From Hymenobacter daecheongensis DSM 21074 (GTDB taxonomy: Bacteria; Bacteroidota; Bacteroidia; Cytophagales; Hymenobacteraceae), in contig NZ_FQYN01000003.1 of assembly GCF_900141805.1 (NCBI RefSeq), positions 124,001 to 188,000 of the forward strand: a stretch of DNA of 64,000 nucleotides, read 5' to 3'. Positions 2,241-52,795 of the stretch are shown here, piece by piece. Position numbers and translations under genes: made by a program. The first letter of the stretch is position 1, and the number at the start of each line of letters is the position of its first letter. The notes under the pieces were generated by a model, which saw only the letters and a program-made list of their open reading frames with translations, was not told where the DNA came from and searched no databases.

Positions 2241-5200
2241 TTACTTGGCTTTGCTTTTGGCCCGGCTCTTGGGCGCCTCCTTGCCATTAGCGCTTGCCGG
2301 CGTCTCAGCCGACTTCAGTTCGGCCCGCCGACGAGTGGTCTGCCGCTCCTTGGCCACCAGGTTGGCGCTGCCAGGCTGAGCCGGGGCAGCTGCCTCGGTA
2401 GTCGCCGAAGCCGTCGCCGTGCGCCGGCTGGCAGCCTTCACCGGAGCCTTAGCAGTTGTCGGGCGCTTGCTGGCGCTGCCACGGTTAGTTGAGGCCGGGG
2501 CGGCCGTGGCTAAGCCGGCCCGCCGGGGGCTGCGCTCAGCGGCCGGAGCGGCCGCGCGTGGGCTCGCCATTCGGCGCAGGCTGCCCCGACGCTCCGGCTC
2601 GGGCTCGGGCTCCGGCATCATGTCTTCCACCAGCTGGAAGGCCGACAGCCCCACCTGCAGGTCATCGGCAATGTCGGTCAGGTTCTGGCTGGAAGTGGTC
2701 AGCTCCTGCATGGAGGTAGAAAGCTGCTTGGCAGTGCTGGCCACTTGCTGGGTGCCGCTGGCCGTTTGCTCGGCAATGGCTACCACTTCTTCCACGTACT
2801 TTACTACGTCGCCAATCGAGGTTTTCTGTACCTCGGTAGCCGTGAGAATGTCGCGGGAGGTGCGCAGGGTTTCACCGGTACTGGTCGAAATGTTTTTAAA
2901 GGCGCTGGAGGCTTCGAACGTGGCGTTCTTGCCTTTCAGTACCCGGCCTTCCATGGTCGAAATAGCGGTAGCAGCCGAGGTGGTATCTTTCTTAACATCC
3001 TCTACCAGCGTGGCAATTTCGGAGGCCGACTTGCGGGAGCCTTCGGCCAGCTTGCGAATTTCTTCGGCTACTACGGCGAAGCCACGGCCGGCTTCCCCGG
3101 CGCGGGCTGCTTCGATGGCGGCATTCAGGGCCAGCAGGTTGGTCTGGGAGGCAATGTCGGTAATCACGCCCAGCGACTTGCTGATTTCCTGCGAGCGGGT
3201 GCTCAGTACTTCGATGGTGCGCGAGGTCTGGGTGGCCGCGTTGGAGATTTCCTCCATGTTTTTCACCACTTCCGCCACCGTTTTCAGACCGAGCTGCGAG
3301 GTTTGCTCACCCAGGATAGCCGCTTTGTTCACCACGTCGGCCTTGCCGGCCGTTTCCTTGGTGGCCTGCATGATTTCCTCGATCAGCTTGAAGGCCTGGT
3401 CCGTCTTCAAAGCCTGGTTCTGAGCGCCTTCAGCCATCTGCTGCATAGCCAGGGCCACGTCGACCGTCACCCGGCTCATTTCCTGGCCCTTCGCGGCCAT
3501 TTCCTCCGACGACTCCCCTACAATCTGCGACGACTCGTTGATTTCGCCGAGCAGCTCGTTGAGGTTGTCCACGGCGATGTTCAGGGCGTTGGACATGGCC
3601 AGAATGTCGCCGGCGGTCTGGATTTCCACTTTCTGCGTCAGGTCGCCTTCCGCAATAGCACGTACCACGCGCGATACTTCGAGTACCGGCGAGGCAATGG
3701 ATTCGATCAGGTCGTTGAGCGTATCCACAATTTCCTTCCACGAGCCCGATACTCCGCCTACTGTGGCGCGCTCGGTCAGCTTGCCCTCTACCCCAGCCAC
3801 CTTCGCTACCCGGCTTACTTCCAGGGCGAGGCGGTTCAGGTCATCCACCATGCGGTTGATGGTGTCGGCCAGCTCGGCTACTTCGCCTTTGGCTTCCAGC
3901 TTGAGCTTCTGGGTCAGGTCACCTTTCGATACGCCGGTTACTACTTTCACAATGCCCCGTACCTGCGTGGTGAGGTTGGCGGCCATCGTGTTTACGTTGT
4001 CGGTCAGGTCTTTCCACACGCCCGATACGTTGGGCACGTTGGCCTGGCCGCCGAGGCGACCTTCAGTTCCTACTTCCTGCGCCACGCGCGTTACCTCGCC
4101 GGCGAAGATGTTCAGCGAGTCCACCATCCGGTTGATGTTGTCCTTCAGGTCGAGCAGCTCGCCTTTTACATCTACCGAAACCTTCTGGCTTAGGTCGCCG
4201 CGGGCTACGGCGGTGGTTACGTTGGCAATGTCCCGCACCTGCGAGGTGAGCGAGGCAGCCATGAAGTTTACGTTGTCGGTGAGGTCTTTCCAGGTGCCGC
4301 GCACATTGGGCACCACGGCCTGACCGCCGAGCTTCCCTTCGGTGCCCACTTCGCGGGCTACCCGGGTAACTTCGTCGCCGAACGTGTTCAGCGAGTCCAC
4401 CATCTGGTTCAGGTTTTCCTTGAGCTGGAGCAGCTCCCCGCGCACGTTCACCGTTACCTTCTGGCTCAGGTCACCTCTTGCTACGGCCGTTGCCACATTG
4501 GCAATGTCTCGTACCTGCGAGGTCAGGTTCGAGGCCATCGTATTTACGTTGTCGGTCAGGTCCTTCCACGTTCCTGATACGCTCGGCACGTTGGCCTGGC
4601 CGCCCAGGATACCCTCGGTGCCCACTTCGCGGGCCACGCGGGTTACTTCGCCGGCGAAGATATTGAGCGAGTCCACCATCTGATTCAGGATGTTCTTCAG
4701 GTCGAGAATCTCGCCGTTCACACTCACCGTCATCTTCTGGGTCAGGTCACCTTTTGCTACCGCGGTAGCTACGTTGGCAATGTCGCGCACCTGAAGCGTC
4801 AGGTTCGAAGCCATCGTGTTAACGTTGTCCGTCAGCTCCTTCCAGGTTCCGCCAACGCGCGGCACGTTGGCCTGCCCGCCGAGTTTACCTTCCGTACCTA
4901 CTTCGCGGGCCACGCGGGTTACCTCATCACCGAAGATGTTGAGGGAGTCCACCATCTGATTCAGGATGTTCTTCAGCTCCAGAATCTCACCCTTCACGTT
5001 CACCGTCATCTTCTGGCTCAGGTCGCCGCGGGCAACGGCGGTAGCCACGTTGGCAATGTCCCGTACCTGAGAGGTCAGGTTCGAGGCCATGTAGTTTACG
5101 TTGTCGGTCAGCTCTTTCCATACGCCGGCCACGTTCGGCACGCTGGCCTGGCCGCCGAGCTTGCCCTCGGTGCCTACTTCCTGCGCCACGCGCGTTACCT

Positions 5201-6653
5201 CGCCCGCGAACAGGTTCAGCGAGTCCACCATCTGGTTCAGGTTCTGCTTGAGTTGCAGCAGCTCCCCTTTTACATCAACGGTGATTTTCTGGCTCAAGTC
5301 GCCGCGGGCTACGGCGGTAGCCACGTTGGCAATATCCCGCACCTGAAGTGTCAGGTTCGAGGCCATGTAGTTTACGTTGTCGGTCAGCTCTTTCCACACG
5401 CCGGCCACGTTCGGTACGCTGGCCTGGCCGCCGAGGCGGCCTTCGGTGCCTACTTCCTGGGCCACCCGCGTTACTTCCCCCGCGAACAGGTTCAGCGAGT
5501 CCACCATCTGGTTTAGATTCTGCTTCAGCAGAAGCAGTTCGCCCTTCACATCGACGGTAATCTTCTGCGACAGGTCGCCTTTAGCAACCGCCGTGGCTAC
5601 GTTGGCAATATCCCGTACCTGCGAGGTCAGGTTCGAGGCCATGTAGTTTACGTTGTCGGTCAACTCTTTCCATACGCCGGCCACGTTCGGCACGCTGGCC
5701 TGGCCGCCGAGCTTGCCCTCGGTGCCTACTTCCTGCGCCACGCGCGTTACCTCGCCCGCGAACAGGTTCAGCGAGTCCACCATCTGGTTCAGGTTCTGCT
5801 TGAGTTGCAGCAGCTCCCCTTTCACGTCAACGGTTACTTTCTGGCTCAGGTCGCCTTTGGCTACGGCGGTAGCTACGTTGGCAATGTCCCGTACCTGCGA
5901 GGTCAGGTTCAGAGCCATGGTGTTCACGTTGTCGGTGAGCTGCTTCCACACGCCGCCCACGTTTGGTACGCTGGCCTGGCCGCCGAGCTTACCCTCAGTG
6001 CCTACTTCCTGCGCCACGCGCGTTACTTCGCCCGCAAACAGGTTCAGGTTGTCAATCGTCTTGTTGATGGTTTCGGCCATCACCTTGAAGTCGCCCGATA
6101 CCGGAATCTGGAAGGTTTCGTCCAGGTTTCCTTTCGAGATGTTCTTCAGTACTTTGCCTACTTCCAATACCGGCACGGCGATGCTGTCTACCAGGCCGTT
6201 GATATTGTTAATCATGTCGCGCCAGAAGCCCGAGGCGTTTTCGGCCGAGGCCCGCGCTTTCAGGTTCCCTTCTACCCCGGCCACCTTCGAAATGCGCGAC
6301 ACCTCGCCGCCCACGCCGCCGATCATCTCTACCATCGAGTTGTAGGCTTCGGCGATTTCGGCGAAAATGTCGTCGTTCTGCTTGGTCAGGCGCACACTCA
6401 CGTCGCCCTTCTTGAAGGCGTCGAGGGCGTAGAGCACCCGGTTGAGCTGGTCGTTGATGTAGTCGGCTTCTTGGCTGTCTTCCGAGCCGCGGCCACTCCC
6501 CCGCTTCCGGGTGATGTCGGAGCTGGTGCGGGCTCCGGTGGGCCGGAGCATCGTGCCTTTGTCGGGGGCAGGGGCCGACATAAGCGGGGTCGTTTTCTCG
6601 GGAGCGTCGGTATCCGGAGGGGTAATATTCTTGGTAATCTTACCTGAAGCCAT
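2241..6653 (-). CDS. Giant soluble methyl-accepting chemotaxis protein with tandem HAMP array
   Basis: A 1470-residue receptor from the ATG at 6653. After a Pro/Ser-rich N-terminus (1-65) come about eleven units of about 92 residues, each carrying HAMP-type signatures such as [19 protein letters not shown] and [19 protein letters not shown] standard MCP signalling domain follows (about 1050-1330), with the highly conserved hairpin tip ([20 protein letters not shown]) near 1170-1200. The tail from about 1345 is rich in Lys, Ala, Pro and Arg. I see no signal peptide or membrane segment, so it is probably a cytoplasmic receptor; its ligand is unknown. Some repeat units are almost identical at DNA level. 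It is the promoter-proximal gene of the che operon. An ATG at 6692 is possible but adds unconserved sequence. Confidence 0.9.
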
Positions 6654-40095: not shown

Positions 40096-40146
40096 GGGCC
40101 GGTTATTTTTAGCTGGTTGAAAACGCAAACGCCCCCGGAGCACGTT

Positions 40147-42093
40147 ATGAGCCTCGTGAACATGCTGAACCCCAAACTGCTGCTGCTCCCGGCCCTGCTG
40201 CTGGCCGCCCTCACGCCCGGCCGCGGGCAGGGCTGCTTCGTGAATGCCAACGGCACCCGCGAGTTCCGCGTGTACGACGCGGCCACCCGGCAGGAAGTGA
40301 CAGCGCTGTGCGTGGGCAACCGCTACCGGCTCAAGGATGTCAGCGACCAGCTCACGTCGCCCCAAATCATTCCGCCGTCCCGCATCTACTACCTCACGGG
40401 GCCGGCCATCACCTGCGCCGCCGGCACCGATACCACCACCTTCTACACGCCCGCCACGGCCGGCCCGGTGGTCATCACCCAGAACACGCCCAACCTGACC
40501 AACCCGGCCAGCGGCATCATCTACAGCCGCACCTTCGAGGTGCTGGCCCGGCCCCGGCCCACGTTTGCGCTGCTGGCCTGCTCGCCGGGTGTAGTGCAGG
40601 TCAGCATCGACTACGCCAAAGACAGCTACAACACTTACCAGGTGCAGGTGGGCACGCTCACGGATAACGTGCCCCGCGGGGCCGCCCCCCGCTCCTATCC
40701 GGCCGCGGCCGGCGTCACCAGCGTCACCGTCACGGGGGCCTATACCGGCAGCTGCGCCTCCGAGCCCACCGCGCAGTCCTTCACCCCCAAGCCTGCGCCC
40801 CTCACGCCCGCCATCCAGCGCCTCGACCGGCAGGGCCCCAGCTTCGTGCTGCAGTTCGGCCCCCTGCAACCGGAGTATACCTACACCCTGCAGCAGACCG
40901 ATGCCCCCGCGCCCGACGTTCGGCTGAGTCCCGGCCAGACTACCCTGACCCTGCCGGTGCCCGCCGCCGCCAACGGCTGCTACCGCCTGCTGCTCACCGA
41001 TGCCTGCTCGCCCAGCCTGCTTAGTGTCCCTTCCGCCACCCTGTGCTCGGTGCTGCTCACCGGCACGTCGGCCAACGGCCGCAACCTGCTGAGCTGGCCC
41101 CCAAACGGCGCGACCAGCTACGTGCTGCGCCGCGACGGCGTGGTGCTGCCGGGTGCCACGTCGCCCTACGTCGATTCGGTGGGCATTGTCTGCGGGGTGA
41201 GCTACCGCTACCGCCTGGAGGCCACCACGGGCAGCGGCCCCACGGCCGGCGTGGCCACCAGCGAGGCGGTGGTGCTGACCTCGGCCCTGCGCACCCAGCC
41301 GGTGCCGGCCCTGTTTGTCAGCTTCAATGCCCGCAACCAGCCCGAGCTGACCGCCAGCGTGCCGGGCCTGCCCACCGGCGGCCAGCTTATCTACCAGCGC
41401 GACAACACCCTTACTATAGCCACCACCGCCCGCCGCACCACCCGCGACTCGACCCTGACCGCGCCCACCGGCCCGGTGTGCTACACGGTGCGCTTCGCCG
41501 ATGCCTGCGGCAACCAGTCGGCGGCCAGCCCGGCCTTCTGCCCGGTGTTTCTGACGGCTAAAGCCGCCGACCCGGAAGGCACCCGCGCCCAGCTGGCCTG
41601 GACGGCCCTGGGCAGCCCGGCCCCCGCCGCCGCCGTGCGCTACACCGTGGAGGCCCAGCTCGCCGACGGCACCTGGCGGGCCGTGAGCGCCGCCCTCGCG
41701 GCCCTCGACTTCCTGGATCTGCAGCCCGCCGCCGACCGGCAGGTGCTGCGCTACCGCGTGGCGGCCCGCGCCCCCGGTCAGCCGGTGAGCTACTCCAACA
41801 CGGCCACCGTGGCCCGGCAGCTCAAGCTGTTTCTGCCCACTGCCTTCAGCCCCAACGGCGACGGCCTGAACGACGTGCTGGAATTGAAGGGCCGCTTCCT
41901 CACCACGTTCCGCTTCTCGGTGGTCGACCGCAACGGCCAGGAGGTGTTCCGCGCCGCCGACCGCACCCAGACCTGGAACGGCCGCATCGGCAACGAGCAG
42001 CCCGTGCCCGGCGCCTACGTGTGGCGCTTCGAGGCTACCGACGAAACCGGCCTGCGCATCGTGCAGCACGGCACCATCACGATAGTGCGGTAA
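40147..42093 (+). CDS. Surface protein with gliding-type (CHU_C) C-terminal sorting domain
   Basis: A 648-residue exported protein from the ATG at 40147 (alternatives: TTG 40117, ATG 40162). A signal peptide (LLLLPALLLAALTPGRGQG) is followed by a Thr/Ala/Pro-rich body with several fibronectin-like beta-sandwich stretches (for example NLLSWPPNGATSYVLRRDG). It ends in the CHU_C/type B T9SS sorting domain (about 570-648): FLPTAFSPNGDGLNDVLELK, FSVVDRNGQEVF, TWNGRIGNEQPVPGAYVW. This predicts export by the type IX system and display on the cell surface, as for adhesins of gliding bacteria. No ligand can be inferred. Confidence 0.88.
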   Translation: MSLVNMLNPKLLLLPALLLAALTPGRGQGCFVNANGTREFRVYDAATRQEVTALCVGNRYRLKDVSDQLTSPQIIPPSRIYYLTGPAITCAAGTDTTTFYTPATAGPVVITQNTPNLTNPASGIIYSRTFEVLARPRPTFALLACSPGVVQVSIDYAKDSYNTYQVQVGTLTDNVPRGAAPRSYPAAAGVTSVTVTGAYTGSCASEPTAQSFTPKPAPLTPAIQRLDRQGPSFVLQFGPLQPEYTYTLQQTDAPAPDVRLSPGQTTLTLPVPAAANGCYRLLLTDACSPSLLSVPSATLCSVLLTGTSANGRNLLSWPPNGATSYVLRRDGVVLPGATSPYVDSVGIVCGVSYRYRLEATTGSGPTAGVATSEAVVLTSALRTQPVPALFVSFNARNQPELTASVPGLPTGGQLIYQRDNTLTIATTARRTTRDSTLTAPTGPVCYTVRFADACGNQSAASPAFCPVFLTAKAADPEGTRAQLAWTALGSPAPAAAVRYTVEAQLADGTWRAVSAALAALDFLDLQPAADRQVLRYRVAARAPGQPVSYSNTATVARQLKLFLPTAFSPNGDGLNDVLELKGRFLTTFRFSVVDRNGQEVFRAADRTQTWNGRIGNEQPVPGAYVWRFEATDETGLRIVQHGTITIVR

Positions 42094-42161
42094 GCGCCGT
42101 CGGCTGCCACCCGTGCTACTTTCCCGTCCGCTGCCTCCGCATGGGTGACGGGCAGCGTGGC

Positions 42162-42497
42162 GTTGGTCTTGACCAACGGCGCTTCGGACGAGACCAACAC
42201 GATTTTGGACGAGAGGGAAACGGTTTTGGATGCGTCCGAAATCGTGTTGGACGTATCCGAAATGATTTTGGATACGTCCGAAATGATTTTGGATGCGTCC
42301 GAAATGATTTTGGATGCGTCCGAAATGATTTTGGACGAGAGGGAAACGGTTTTGGACGTGTCCGAAATCAAGTTGGATGCGTCCAACGCGCCGGTGGTCA
42401 AGAGGAAGACCGTTTTGGACGTACCCAACGGCGCGTTGGCCTTTCCCGACGCGGCGTTAGACACGTCCGAAACGGCGTTAGTCTTGGGCAAAATGGC
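42162..42497. repeat. Sixteen 21-bp tandem units with internal dyads
   Basis: The sequence divides without slippage into 16 units of exactly 21 bp starting at 42162. The best-conserved unit is TTTGGATGCGTCCGAAATGA plus T (42267, 42288 and 42309 are nearly identical). Most units hold a small dyad of the form GGAnnnnTCC. There is no stop in two forward frames and one reverse frame; the frame of the downstream gene reads heptads such as ILDASEM. The function may be regulatory or coding. Confidence 0.8.
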
Positions 42498-44259
42498 CCG
42501 CTGGCCCGTGCCGGGGCCTTTCGCCGCTTCCGGGCCGGTGGGCTTCTCTATCTTTGGGGCCAAAGGCCGGCTGTTCGGCCCCGGTGCCCGCTTGTCTTTC
42601 GCCTGCCTGTTGTCCAGATTGCTCCCGCCCCGCTTTGTCCGCCTGCTGCTCCGGCCCTCCATGCTGGCCGGGCTGGGCTTTGGGCTGCTGCTGGCCCTGG
42701 GCGTGCTGCTGCACCGCGACTACGGCATGTCGTGGGATGAGGAGAACAACCACCGCAACGGGCTGGTCAGCCTCAACTACGCCGCCCAGCAGCTGGCCCC
42801 CGACCTGGCCCGCCGGCTGGCCACCAGCCACTCCCCCATCACCGACTTACGGGCCTTCCCCGACGCCGACCACGGCCCGGTGTTCGAAATGGCTGCGGCC
42901 CTGCTTGGCTACCTGCTCACCGATGGCGACTCGCGCCAGGTTTATTTTCTGCGGCATCTGCTGGTCTTTTTCACCTTCGCGCTGGGCTGCGGGGCGCTGG
43001 GCTACATCGGTTGGCAACGCTTCCAGAACTGGCGCTGGGGCCTGCTGTGCAGCCTGCTGCTGGTGCATTCGCCCCGTTTTTTCGCCGAAGCATTCTACAA
43101 TGGCAAAGACGTGGTGTTTATGGCGCTGTTTACGCTGGCGGTGGCTGGGCTGCTCTGGCTGCGCCAACGCCCCACGCTGGGCCGGGTAGCGGGGCACGCC
43201 CTGCTCACGGCCCTGGCCACCGACATCCGGGTGCAGGGCCTGCTGGTGGTGTTGCCCACGCTGGTGGCGCTGCTGGCTCTGCCCTCCCCCGCTTATCCGG
43301 GGCGGCGCCGGCTGCTGCTCAGCGCCGCCTACGTGGCTCTGACGCTGGCCGGCACGGTGGCGGGCTGGCCCTACCTGTGGGCCACGCCCCCGGCCGAGCT
43401 GTGGCAGGCCCTGCACCGATTGGGCAGCTACCCGTGGCCGTTCACGGTGCTCTACTGGGGCCGATTGGTGCCGGCCACGCAGCTTCCCTGGCACTATATT
43501 CCGGTCTGGCTGCTGATTACCACGCCCGTGGCCTACACCGCGCTGGCGCTGCTGGGCCTGGGCCGCACCTTGGCCGGGTGGCCCGCCGGCCGGCTGCGCA
43601 CCCTGGCCGGCCGGCTCGATGCCTGGTTCGCGCTATGGCTGCTGGGGCCGCTGCTGCTGATTGTGGTGCGGCATACGGTGGTGTATGATGGCTGGCGGCA
43701 CCTGTATTTCGTGTATCCGGCCTTACTGCTGTTTGCCGTGGGCGGGCTGCGCGGGCTGGTGGGCGTGGCACGCGGCGCGCACCCGGCCCGTTGGGTGGCG
43801 GGCGCGGCCATGGCCGCGGCGCTGCTGGAGCTGCCCGTCACGGCTCTGCGCATGGCGCGGATGCACCCGTTTCAGCAGGTCTATTTCAGCTTTCTGCCCG
43901 CCGCCACCGCCGAGCGCCTCTTCGAGCGCGACTACTGGGGCCTGGCCTACCGGCAGGGCCTGGAGTGGCTGCTGGCCCACGATGCTGCCCCCCACCTCAC
44001 CATTCAGGTGCCCTGGCACTATCCGCTCTACAACAACTCCCTGATCCTGCCTCCTGAGCAGCGCGCCCGGATTCGCTACGAGCCCAGTGCCCGGGCCCGC
44101 TACTTCATCACCGGCTACCGTTGGCACCCCCAGTCCTACCTCGACAGCATGGGCCACGAAGTGCACACCATCCGCGCAGGCGGGGTCCGGATTCTGTCGG
44201 TGTTTGAGCGGACCGCGCCGGCTGCCCGGCCGGTGGGGCCGGCCGCGGCCCCGCGGTAA
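42493..44259 (+). CDS. Multi-spanning glycosyltransferase (GT39/PMT-like)
   Basis: A polytopic membrane protein of 588 residues from the ATG at 42493, with about ten to twelve hydrophobic segments. After the first helix (AGLGFGLLLALGVLL) comes HRDYGMSWDEENNHRNG, the acidic loop typical of GT-C enzymes that use lipid-linked sugars; further on are HSPRFFAEAFYNGKDVVFM and a C-terminal soluble part. The start is uncertain: a GTG at 42145 would add a heptad-repeat region encoded by the 21-bp array, and an ATG at 42661 would begin at the first helix. The donor and acceptor are unknown. A family 2 glycosyltransferase lies 0.6 kb downstream. Confidence 0.72.
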   Translation: MARWPVPGPFAASGPVGFSIFGAKGRLFGPGARLSFACLLSRLLPPRFVRLLLRPSMLAGLGFGLLLALGVLLHRDYGMSWDEENNHRNGLVSLNYAAQQLAPDLARRLATSHSPITDLRAFPDADHGPVFEMAAALLGYLLTDGDSRQVYFLRHLLVFFTFALGCGALGYIGWQRFQNWRWGLLCSLLLVHSPRFFAEAFYNGKDVVFMALFTLAVAGLLWLRQRPTLGRVAGHALLTALATDIRVQGLLVVLPTLVALLALPSPAYPGRRRLLLSAAYVALTLAGTVAGWPYLWATPPAELWQALHRLGSYPWPFTVLYWGRLVPATQLPWHYIPVWLLITTPVAYTALALLGLGRTLAGWPAGRLRTLAGRLDAWFALWLLGPLLLIVVRHTVVYDGWRHLYFVYPALLLFAVGGLRGLVGVARGAHPARWVAGAAMAAALLELPVTALRMARMHPFQQVYFSFLPAATAERLFERDYWGLAYRQGLEWLLAHDAAPHLTIQVPWHYPLYNNSLILPPEQRARIRYEPSARARYFITGYRWHPQSYLDSMGHEVHTIRAGGVRILSVFERTAPAARPVGPAAAPR

Positions 44260-44427: not shown

Positions 44428-44763
44428 ATGTTTGACATGATGGGCATGATGGGTAAGGTTAAGGAGCTTCAGGAGAAGATGAAGCTGGCCCAAGATGAGC
44501 TGCAGCACATTACGGCCACGGCCGAGTCGGGGGGCGGGCTGGTGAAGGCCACTGCTAACGGCCAGCGCCGCCTGCTCAAGCTCGAAATCGACGAGTCGCT
44601 GCTCACGCCCCAGGACCGCGACATGCTGGCCGACCTGGTGGTGGCCGCCGTGAACAAAGTGATGGAAGAAGCCGGCGAAAAGGCCAAAGAGGAGCTGAAA
44701 AGCAAAACCGCCGGCCTGCTGCCCAACCTCCCCGGCCTCGACCTCGGCAGCTTTGGCCTCTGA
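44428..44763 (+). CDS. ybaB: YbaB/EbfC family nucleoid-associated protein
   Basis: A 111-residue DNA-binding protein. The start MFDMMGMMGKVKELQEKMKL matches the family pattern (MFG.MGMMGKMKEMQ). The conserved core is ATAESGGGLVKATANGQRRLLKLEID, followed by LLTPQDRDMLADLVVAAVNKV; the tail (LLPNLPGLDLGSFGL) is like other Bacteroidota YbaB proteins. Family members form dimers that bind DNA. In many bacteria the gene sits beside dnaX and recR, but neither is seen here. I chose the ATG at 44428; in-frame upstream codons are unconserved. Confidence 0.92.
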   Translation: MFDMMGMMGKVKELQEKMKLAQDELQHITATAESGGGLVKATANGQRRLLKLEIDESLLTPQDRDMLADLVVAAVNKVMEEAGEKAKEELKSKTAGLLPNLPGLDLGSFGL

Positions 44764-51728: not shown

Positions 51729-52265
51729 ATGAACCACCGTTTGCACCTGCGCTTCGAGCAACTCGAACAGGCCACTACCCGCTTGCTCGCCATGGCCCAG
51801 GCACTGGGGCCCAATACGCATCAGGTTCCGGCCCCCGGCCAGTGGTCGGCGGCGCAGGTGGTGCAGCACCTGCTGGTGGCCGAAACCGGCATCGGGCAGT
51901 ACATTGAGAAGAAAGTGCAGCAGGAAGAAGGGCTGGGCAAAACCGGGCTGCTTACTTTTCTGAAATCCCGGCTGCTGCGCCTGGCGTTGCGGCTGCCGTT
52001 TCTGCGCTTCAAAGCGCCCAAGTATCTGGCCGCGCTGACGCCCGAAACCGCGCCACCGCTCGCGGAGCTGCAAACCGAATGGGCCCGCACGCGCCGCCAG
52101 CTGGAGCGCACCCTGAACGAGTTTCCCTCCAAGCTGCTCGACCGCATGATCTTCAAGCACCCCCGCTCCGGGATGCTCAACATCTACCAGACCCTGGACT
52201 TCATGGTCGACCACGTGCTGCACCACCAAAAACAGCTGGAACGCATCCAGAAAGTGGTGAGATAG
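51729..52265 (+). CDS. DinB-family protein
   Basis: A 178-residue four-helix protein of the DinB/YfiT-like superfamily: MNHRLHLRFEQLEQATTRLL, then NTHQVPAPGQWSAAQVVQHLLVAE with the first metal-ligand His (in VQHLL), and near the C-terminus FMVDHVLHHQKQLERI with the paired His residues. These three His positions usually bind a divalent metal. Some members are thiol transferases; the function here is unknown. The ATG at 51729 matches the family start. The stop codon TAG (52263-52265) lies inside the left arm of a long palindrome. Confidence 0.85.
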   Translation: MNHRLHLRFEQLEQATTRLLAMAQALGPNTHQVPAPGQWSAAQVVQHLLVAETGIGQYIEKKVQQEEGLGKTGLLTFLKSRLLRLALRLPFLRFKAPKYLAALTPETAPPLAELQTEWARTRRQLERTLNEFPSKLLDRMIFKHPRSGMLNIYQTLDFMVDHVLHHQKQLERIQKVVR

Positions 52266-52365
52266 TGAAATGGTGAAATAGTGAGTTTGCTGTTCGACTT
52301 GCGCCAACTGCGCCACTTGCGCAAGTCGAACAGCAAACTCACCATTTCACTATCTCACTATTTCA
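52259..52365. repeat. 47-bp near-perfect palindrome containing both flanking stop codons
   Basis: Arms 52259-52305 and 52319-52365 are complementary; the 24 bp next to the loop (GCGCAAGTCGAACAGCAAAC core) are perfect and the outer 23 bp are near-perfect, made of GTGAAATAG-like repeats. The TAG of the DinB gene (52263-52265) and the TAG of the convergent thioesterase gene (52358-52360, minus) lie inside the two arms. Confidence 0.8.
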
Positions 52366-52795
52366 CTATTTCAGCATACGTCTCGTGCTGGGGCATTTGG
52401 CGCATGGCTTCTACTATTTCGGCGGGAGGCACCATGAGTTTGCGGCGGCGCAGGTCGAGCCAGGCACCATCGACGGTGATGGTGGCGGCCACGCGGCCAT
52501 CGGCTTTGTAGAGCGTATGGACGATGCGCCAGCGGGAGCCGTCGGGACTCAGGCCGGCCGCTTCCGCCGTCACCCGGATAGCCTCGCTGATACCGACTTC
52601 CTTCAGAAAGCGGGTGTCTTCGCGGAACAGAATCGGGCCCATGGCCAGCTCCGCGAAGCGCGGCAGGGTGAAGCCATGCTCGGCCAGATATTCCAGGCGC
52701 ACCTGGGCGGCATAGTCGGTGTAGGCGGAGTGGCGCATGTGCCCGTTTGGGTCCATATCGGCCCAGCGCACGGTGTAGGTTTTGGCGTACTGCAT
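52358..52795 (-). CDS. Acyl-CoA thioesterase, hotdog fold (4HBT type)
   Basis: A 145-residue single hotdog domain. The catalytic block YTVRWADMDPNGHMRHSAYTDYA holds the conserved Asp (Asp15, DPNGHM). VRLEYLAEHG forms the long helix, and the C-terminal half has FREDTRFLKEVGISEAIRV and the paired beta strands. Such enzymes hydrolyse acyl-CoA thioesters; the natural substrate is unknown. The last codons (EIVK, stop) are read from the right arm of the palindrome at 52259-52365, and the space upstream of the ATG is filled by another palindromic repeat. Confidence 0.88.
   Translation of the reverse strand: MQYAKTYTVRWADMDPNGHMRHSAYTDYAAQVRLEYLAEHGFTLPRFAELAMGPILFREDTRFLKEVGISEAIRVTAEAAGLSPDGSRWRIVHTLYKADGRVAATITVDGAWLDLRRRKLMVPPAEIVEAMRQMPQHETYAEIVK

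Follow-up and report, generated by a model that had tools for sequence, protein, structure and literature searches.

In the window, i.e. the whole stretch of 64,000 nucleotides of Hymenobacter daecheongensis DSM 21074 analysed here (G000:C11:124001-188000 of a 4.39 Mb genome), sixteen 21-bp units form an array that we tentatively regard as a non-coding orphan platform, its phased dyad sites being read in trans by a putative binder, an explanation to which we give slightly less than an even chance. It looks like a detached relative of arrays that stand before the genes of a little-known fn3 protein family in scattered Bacteroidota, and thereby suggests a system of gene plus array that is so far undescribed.

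The array extends from 42162 to 42497 without assignment to a strand, as defined by the unit listing, the signal at lag 21, the TRF core and the dyad test. The exact periodicity claimed in the initial annotation was confirmed, since the 336 bp comprise 16.0 units of 21 bp with zero slippage, and the self-identity of the array at lag 21 is 0.657. Core units consist of a 5-bp arm, a 4-bp centre, a second 5-bp arm and a 7-bp spacer, the commonest unit being TTGGA-TGCG-TCCGA followed by the spacer. In the core region (42137-42407), dyad symmetry was higher than in column shuffles (0/400 shuffles), so that, given the 21-bp spacing, the proposal of dyad sites at integral helical spacing also held. 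The motif GGAnnnnTCC, however, which had been attributed to most units, was found in 7/16 of them. The outer units are diverged and TRF calls just 42201-42384. The array folds far better than dinucleotide shuffles, both as RNA (z -13.7) and as DNA (z -12.7). Furthermore, an array-scale inverted repeat without strand (42167..42403, arms 42167-42284 and 42286-42403) with 118-nt arms of 71% complementarity runs across units 1-12; its axis at 42285 is the best among the same-phase axes, and the order of the units adds to the symmetry (unit-order permutation, p=0.014). Such a palindrome was rejected as a general trait, because among nine arrays the axis symmetry was found in the window only (L182 reached 0.068). 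By folding, unit order matters in 6/23 arrays (<=1 of 60 permutations). Arm covariation inside the window array alone was not found (p=0.32); among other arrays, L069 (0.018) and L003 (0.046) covary, whereas L158 (0.46) does not. Inverted-repeat ends were likewise not detected around the window array (p=0.215), but they flank four other arrays at p=0.000 (L062, L069, L076 and L182). The array L182:517-737 (G143:C140) is symmetric around its middle and closed by matching 18-bp inverted ends. A 7-bp sub-period was not found (mean lag-7 z -0.08, pooled over 21 arrays), and the column variability at periods of 10.5 bp and 3 bp gave nominal p-values of 0.008 and 0.039 among 10 frequencies, on which we did not build. 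A search of the array against plasmids gave three weak Streptomyces matches, which were taken as chance.

Together with a probable GT-C (PMT_2-like) membrane glycosyltransferase gene (42661..44259, + strand, start likely at 42661 by homology limits), the array sits between a gene with a CHU_C (type IX secretion signal) domain (40117..42093, + strand; Pfam PF13585, 1.1e-11) and a ybaB/ebfC-like gene (44428..44763, + strand; Pfam PF02575, 9.3e-27). The earlier label of a glycosyltransferase is plausible with regard to the homologues, 9/12 of which matched PMT_2 in the alignment (best match 1.9e-8; 12 of 30 fetched rows aligned), but the window protein itself matched 0 families; its structure predicted from one sequence (mean pLDDT of 46.6) was set aside. 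Homologues of the protein occur in 99/120 genus genomes. Their alignments mostly begin around residue 150-178 of the 704-codon frame, few of them earlier, which places the start of homology near 42661, and DNA similarity starts at 42670-42710 in the 10 loci compared. Hence, judged by homology, the array lies outside the downstream enzyme. Neither the protein nor the DNA comparison showed conserved homology running through it. A 21-bp array within 1.5 kb was found at 0/29 homologue loci, which gives no support to a conserved control element of this enzyme. The CHU_C gene has matches in 60/61 genus genomes, and the array is missing at its loci in relatives (0/14). Among these 14 relatives, ybaB directly follows the CHU_C gene in 7 with a gap of about 80-150 bp, lies about 1.2 kb behind it in one further relative and is not within 1.5 kb in the remaining 6. 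The array and the GT-C gene may have been inserted together, and some effect of the array on this gene is conceivable. Between the two lies a TAnnTTTG box (42549..42556, + strand), a possible promoter element that we take to resemble the Bacteroidota consensus; it is one of 11 on the + strand of the window, and a TTG upstream of it was not found at the tested spacing. The transcript of the GT-C gene could start from this box. A 21-bp array also stands before a PMT_2 transferase gene (1.5e-11) in the uncultured Bacteroidota genome G142 (L160:13414-13770), possibly by coincidence.

With its exact 21-bp period and its intergenic position (protein homology starts after the array), the window array belongs to a class of intergenic 21-bp arrays with unrelated units, of which we did not find a description. 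Lag scans over samples of genomes at lags 12-45 (the genus set containing one genome per species) revealed that exact-21-bp intergenic arrays are dense in Hymenobacter duratus (G007) and in G142 and sparse in the other samples. In 400 kb of H. duratus, 8 regions were found at lag 21 and 6 at lag 42, compared to 0-1 at others; one of the 8 regions (L072, 78% GC) was set aside as probably coding. The 149,855 unmasked bases of G142 contained 11 regions at lag 21, two of them heptamer repeats, and 13 at lag 42, compared to 0-2 at others. In 464 kb of the window genome there was 1 region at lag 21 versus 3 at lag 24, which counts against a platform, and 12 other genomes with 100 kb each gave 3 lag-21 regions in total, one a heptamer repeat and two coding-repeat-like. 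The unit sequence differs from array to array. According to rough gene calling, 11/21 arrays are clear of called frames and 10/21 overlap frames, mostly of 81-120 codons inside the repeat; the two long overlapping frames are the 704-codon frame of the window and a 616-codon frame at L069. Five of the 21 arrays stand between divergent genes. Within arrays, unit likeness declines from 0.737 at distance 1 to 0.579 at distance 8, and the edges are more diverged (0.651 vs 0.797), which is a mark of local duplication.

Several further repeats were noted during this survey. Heptamer arrays (AATACCA, CACTAAT) at L164:5092-5300, L164:6922-7139 and L131:11926-12122 also show lag 21 but are of a different kind, and L144 turned out on reading of the contig match to be a pair of palindromes and not an array. 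An ECF sigma factor gene of G142 is preceded, at about 400 bp, by a 21-bp array (L177:10941-11218). The window itself contains another tandem repeat at 3906-6047 (period 276, 7.8 copies, 81% matches) and short tandem repeats of 8 and 16 bp at 52250-52377.

The gene family found with the arrays encodes, as far as profile searches tell, proteins with an N-terminal half of unknown kind and a C-terminal fn3 half. The latter was recognised by Pfam in 4/10 members and matched titin fn3 at 3.6e-20; the former had no convincing match in the searches and looks helical to us. The family profile was seeded with four Hymenobacter proteins and one array neighbour from G142, itself found at 3.7e-5. This five-row profile then found a second array neighbour in G142 (L176; 3.4e-7 among 15,029 frames) and, in 395 genomes of the phylum, 8 loci in 7 genomes. 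Period 21 was present in 8/8 cases over 600 bp on the upstream side (z 9.3-30) and ranked first of the periods 15-30 in each, while the downstream regions gave z -0.7 to 2.7, with period 21 still first at L251 and L252. Values of z>=9 occurred in 0/40 control regions and 2/300 random pieces, and period 21 ranked first in 6/40 and 52/300, respectively; it must be mentioned that z values are inflated in ordinary DNA, since z>=5 was reached in 1/40 control regions and 17/300 random pieces. Two of the 8 loci are related to the Hymenobacter seeds, which leaves 6 independent ones, and the arrays at L251 and L252 among these 6 are weak; both points were counted against a platform. With a plain lag threshold, 4/6 independent loci are clear versus 0/43 control loci (p=7e-5). 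The seeds themselves are biased, because it was the neighbours of arrays that led to the linkage. Their arrays lie upstream in 4/5 cases and downstream at L184, and at L143, a likely family relative by its fn3 part, the array is also downstream; these two downstream positions count against a platform.

Within the genus, family matches at E<=1e-3 were obtained in 41/120 genomes, many of them over the fn3 part only, and at E<=1e-60 in 11/120. A covariance-model match (see below) lies within 300 bp upstream of 6 of the 11 strong genes, the upstream DNA of the other 5 being unread. The genome G061 has 10 family matches on several contigs and no array found by the covariance model, again a point against a platform. 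PADLOC gave one weak match in 1/10 family members and PHROGs weak matches in 2/5 proteins, the better of which align tail proteins with the fn3 part of L196. The proteins beside L060, L064, L159 and L226 are similar by eye but were not joined by the profile. At L196:1167-1628 (G564:C1), in another Bacteroidota family, about 21 nearly identical 21-bp units stand upstream of an fn3 protein, and the minus strand of this array reads as KVFAELR-like heptads. A description of the coupling of gene and array was not recognised in the open-access literature searched, outside of which most subscription journals and preprints lie.

Dyads are not a general trait of the class, since dyad p<0.05 was obtained in just 4/15 arrays found by period alone. 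A covariance model built from three tandem units gave matches in 12/120 genus genomes at E<=0.01. Reading of the 11 fetched model loci gave 8 with arrays of 21-bp units, 1 with a short array and 2 without; L227 and L228 were dropped after reading, and at L222, one of the 8 array loci, the dyad was not significant. Four loci (L224, L229, L242 and L245) have one flanking stretch in common, which encodes one protein. Together with the array on contig 14 of the window genome, found by protein search, they form a set of linked arrays from five species with five different complementary arm pairs, each with dyad p<=0.003. It counts against a platform that four of these five cases came from a model that rewards pairing, and that perfect dyads in G002 and G123 comprise 1-2 units only. 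A search of 395 genomes with the dyad pattern is not evidence alone, because matches in 2 other genomes stand against control matches in 3 genomes; the array of G564 was recognised solely by reading after such a match. At another site, shared by two species (G027 and G016) with common flanks and 92.7% identity over 1620 bp including the array, 14 x 21 bp lie between fixed anchors in one species and 11 x 21 bp in the other, a difference of exactly 3 units in this sister array.

The window genome has one gene-array pair, its sole family match at E<=1e-3, on contig 14, and the encoded protein is 81% identical to that of L224. Directly downstream of the window array the family gene is absent and the next gene is GT-C-like, so the window array is an orphan. 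As to other unit copies in this genome, the strict pattern is confined to the window array (with 2 mismatches allowed, 4 scattered single matches were found versus 2 for a control pattern), but blastn detected the contig-14 array as a relative (72.7% over 66 bp, E 1.5e-7), and pieces common to both arrays include AAATGATTTTGG and GTCTTGGGCAA. Compared with the five linked arrays, the window array is nearest to this one of its own genome (0.710; others <=0.629). The same was observed in 3/3 genomes with both kinds of array (the window genome, G007 and G060), where the three within-genome pairs beat random pairings (permutation p=0.0009) and ranked 1st, 2nd and 1st of 19 against all other-genome partners. 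Moreover, a full-length gene is present in 5/8 orphan-array genomes, which were assigned by reading, versus 11/120 overall (p=1.2e-4), and in 4/7 when the window genome is left out (p=8e-4). The orphan array of H. duratus is absent from the corresponding site in 7 relatives, in 5 of which both flanking genes are adjacent, and this absence was counted against a platform. Beside this array, at about 6401-6491 of L069 (G007:C3:436401-436491), lies a palindromic element, about 95 bp long and dispersed, that reads AGAGACGCATA...TATGCGTCTCT; it is MITE-like and has copies in many Hymenobacter genomes.

We propose to assign the window array, as an orphan member, to the class of 21-bp arrays that stand directly upstream of the fn3 family gene in Bacteroidota. 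Most of these units in Hymenobacter are dyads, and as 21 bp equal two helical turns, successive sites lie on the same side of the helix. The dyads would be read by a fast-evolving factor acting in trans, perhaps encoded by the linked gene, both at its own upstream array and at orphan arrays, and slippage or unequal exchange would alter the unit number in whole 21-bp steps. This proposal would account for the fixed pitch, the free sequence, the changed dyad arms, the one linked gene and the likeness within genomes. Such a multi-operator-like function gains indirect support from the sequence comparisons, namely that in relatives both arms change but dyad and 21-bp spacing are kept, and that orphan arrays are similar to the linked array of the genome in which they occur. 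A more far-reaching version, which we consider speculative and rather unlikely, would be a self-recognising module, in which the fn3-bearing protein assembles, with one step per two helical turns, on the array upstream of its own gene and acts in trans on the orphans, so that the pitch is kept while the sequence drifts in each lineage.

The most serious rival is neutral growth, i.e. a minisatellite that does nothing and whose expansion and turnover stem from slippage or unequal exchange; template switching would mend quasi-palindromes, so that arms covary without selection. The gradient of unit likeness with its diverged edges, the differing unit numbers of orthologous arrays and the matching sites that are empty in relatives are all in line with such turnover, and bacterial satellites of unrelated sequence are known (PMC6749651). 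Nevertheless, neutral growth alone leaves unexplained why one period is fixed in distant genomes, why the arrays are linked upstream to one gene family and why orphans resemble the linked array of their own genome; we regard it as the less likely explanation, though one to be taken seriously. The last of these observations could also result from copying between arrays without any binder, if gene and array were mobile or gene-converting and the orphan arrays were copies or remnants without the gene. For such an element speak the likeness itself, the position of the window array and GT-C gene between genes that directly adjoin in 7/14 relatives, the matching 18-bp inverted repeats at the ends of L182, and similar arrays in G142 and G143 that could not be placed at matching sites. 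However, terminal inverted repeats were not found around the window array (p=0.215), a transposase match is absent from the fn3 gene family, relatives were found neither on plasmids (two members searched) nor in viral contigs (one member), and the units of paired arrays are just about 0.71-0.80 alike. Taken together, we consider mobility or copying improbable.

Two further alternatives would place the function of the array into RNA or protein. If transcribed, the array could form hairpins that terminate the upstream gene's transcript or protect it, for which the strong RNA folding of the window array and 5 terminator-like sites in 41900-42800 (versus 1.2 in shuffles; 3 within the array) could be quoted. 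But folding is not better than in shuffles for many arrays of the class, arrays also occur between divergent genes (5/21) and upstream of linked genes, and the 7 Rfam matches were all far under their gathering scores, so we think a role at the RNA level very unlikely. Even less credible is the reading of the array as coding heptads, i.e. a coiled-coil N-terminal extension of the glycosyltransferase. The initial annotation was right that the frame through the array is open (42145 to 44259 in the window) and that it contains LDASEM-like heptads. Among the 11 strongest genus matches, 4 also have frames of 383-464 codons running through the array, and the 21 arrays contain 51 open frames in total versus 32.5 in the shuffle null. 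However, the coding meaning does not follow: two + frames and two - frames stay open across the 11 core units, so openness of the frame says little, and the ILDASEM-matching frame contains stops, as read by eye, in L002, L003 and L143, which are related arrays. Of the 21 arrays, 15 have one open frame or more versus 16.0 expected and 6 have none, and third-position GC is 0.75 in the window array versus 0.87-0.92 in neighbouring genes. Since, in addition, homology begins behind the array in both protein and DNA, we discarded the coding reading on homology limits and frames and leave it next to no probability.

Returning to the proposed recognition of phased dyad sites in trans, its significance would lie in the fact that known repeat systems conserve sequence, whereas here a conserved spacing goes with a free sequence and with the coupling of one protein family. 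Should the proposal hold, this would offer a testable case of protein-DNA co-evolution and a role for fn3 proteins of unknown function as well as for minisatellites that are usually dismissed as inert.

Among known systems, parC/ParR represents a multi-operator or centromere-like repeat array beside the gene of its binding protein. The 21-bp arrays are similar in being direct repeats with a near-integral helical pitch, placed immediately before a gene that possibly encodes the binder, with binding putative here; they differ in that a partition protein was not seen, the sequence is different in each lineage and orphan copies occur elsewhere. In RAYT/REP systems, a gene is flanked by palindromic repeats with relatives dispersed in the same genome. 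A repeat-flanked gene and related repeats dispersed in the same genome are common to both, but the fn3 family is without a transposase match and the repeats are tandem arrays rather than single palindromes. BrickBuilt of Porphyromonas gingivalis is a minisatellite within a MITE with 23-nt units of one sequence family, inverted leader and tail ends and 19 copies in one strain (PMC4596501). It shares with the arrays reported here the occurrence in Bacteroidota, the intergenic position, the short tandem units without spacers and the presence of several arrays per genome. The window array differs from it by its 21-bp unit, by the missing inverted ends (p=0.215) and by a strict unit pattern confined to this one array instead of many copies of one unit, and the arrays in general by their free sequence and their tie to a gene family. 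Prokaryotic satellites are described as tandem repeats of 10-200 nt, many of them unique in sequence and mostly short, and the 21-bp arrays resemble them in all three respects (PMC6749651). The portion of that source consulted mentions neither a 21-bp class nor Hymenobacter nor a linked gene family, and in this the arrays presented here differ from it.
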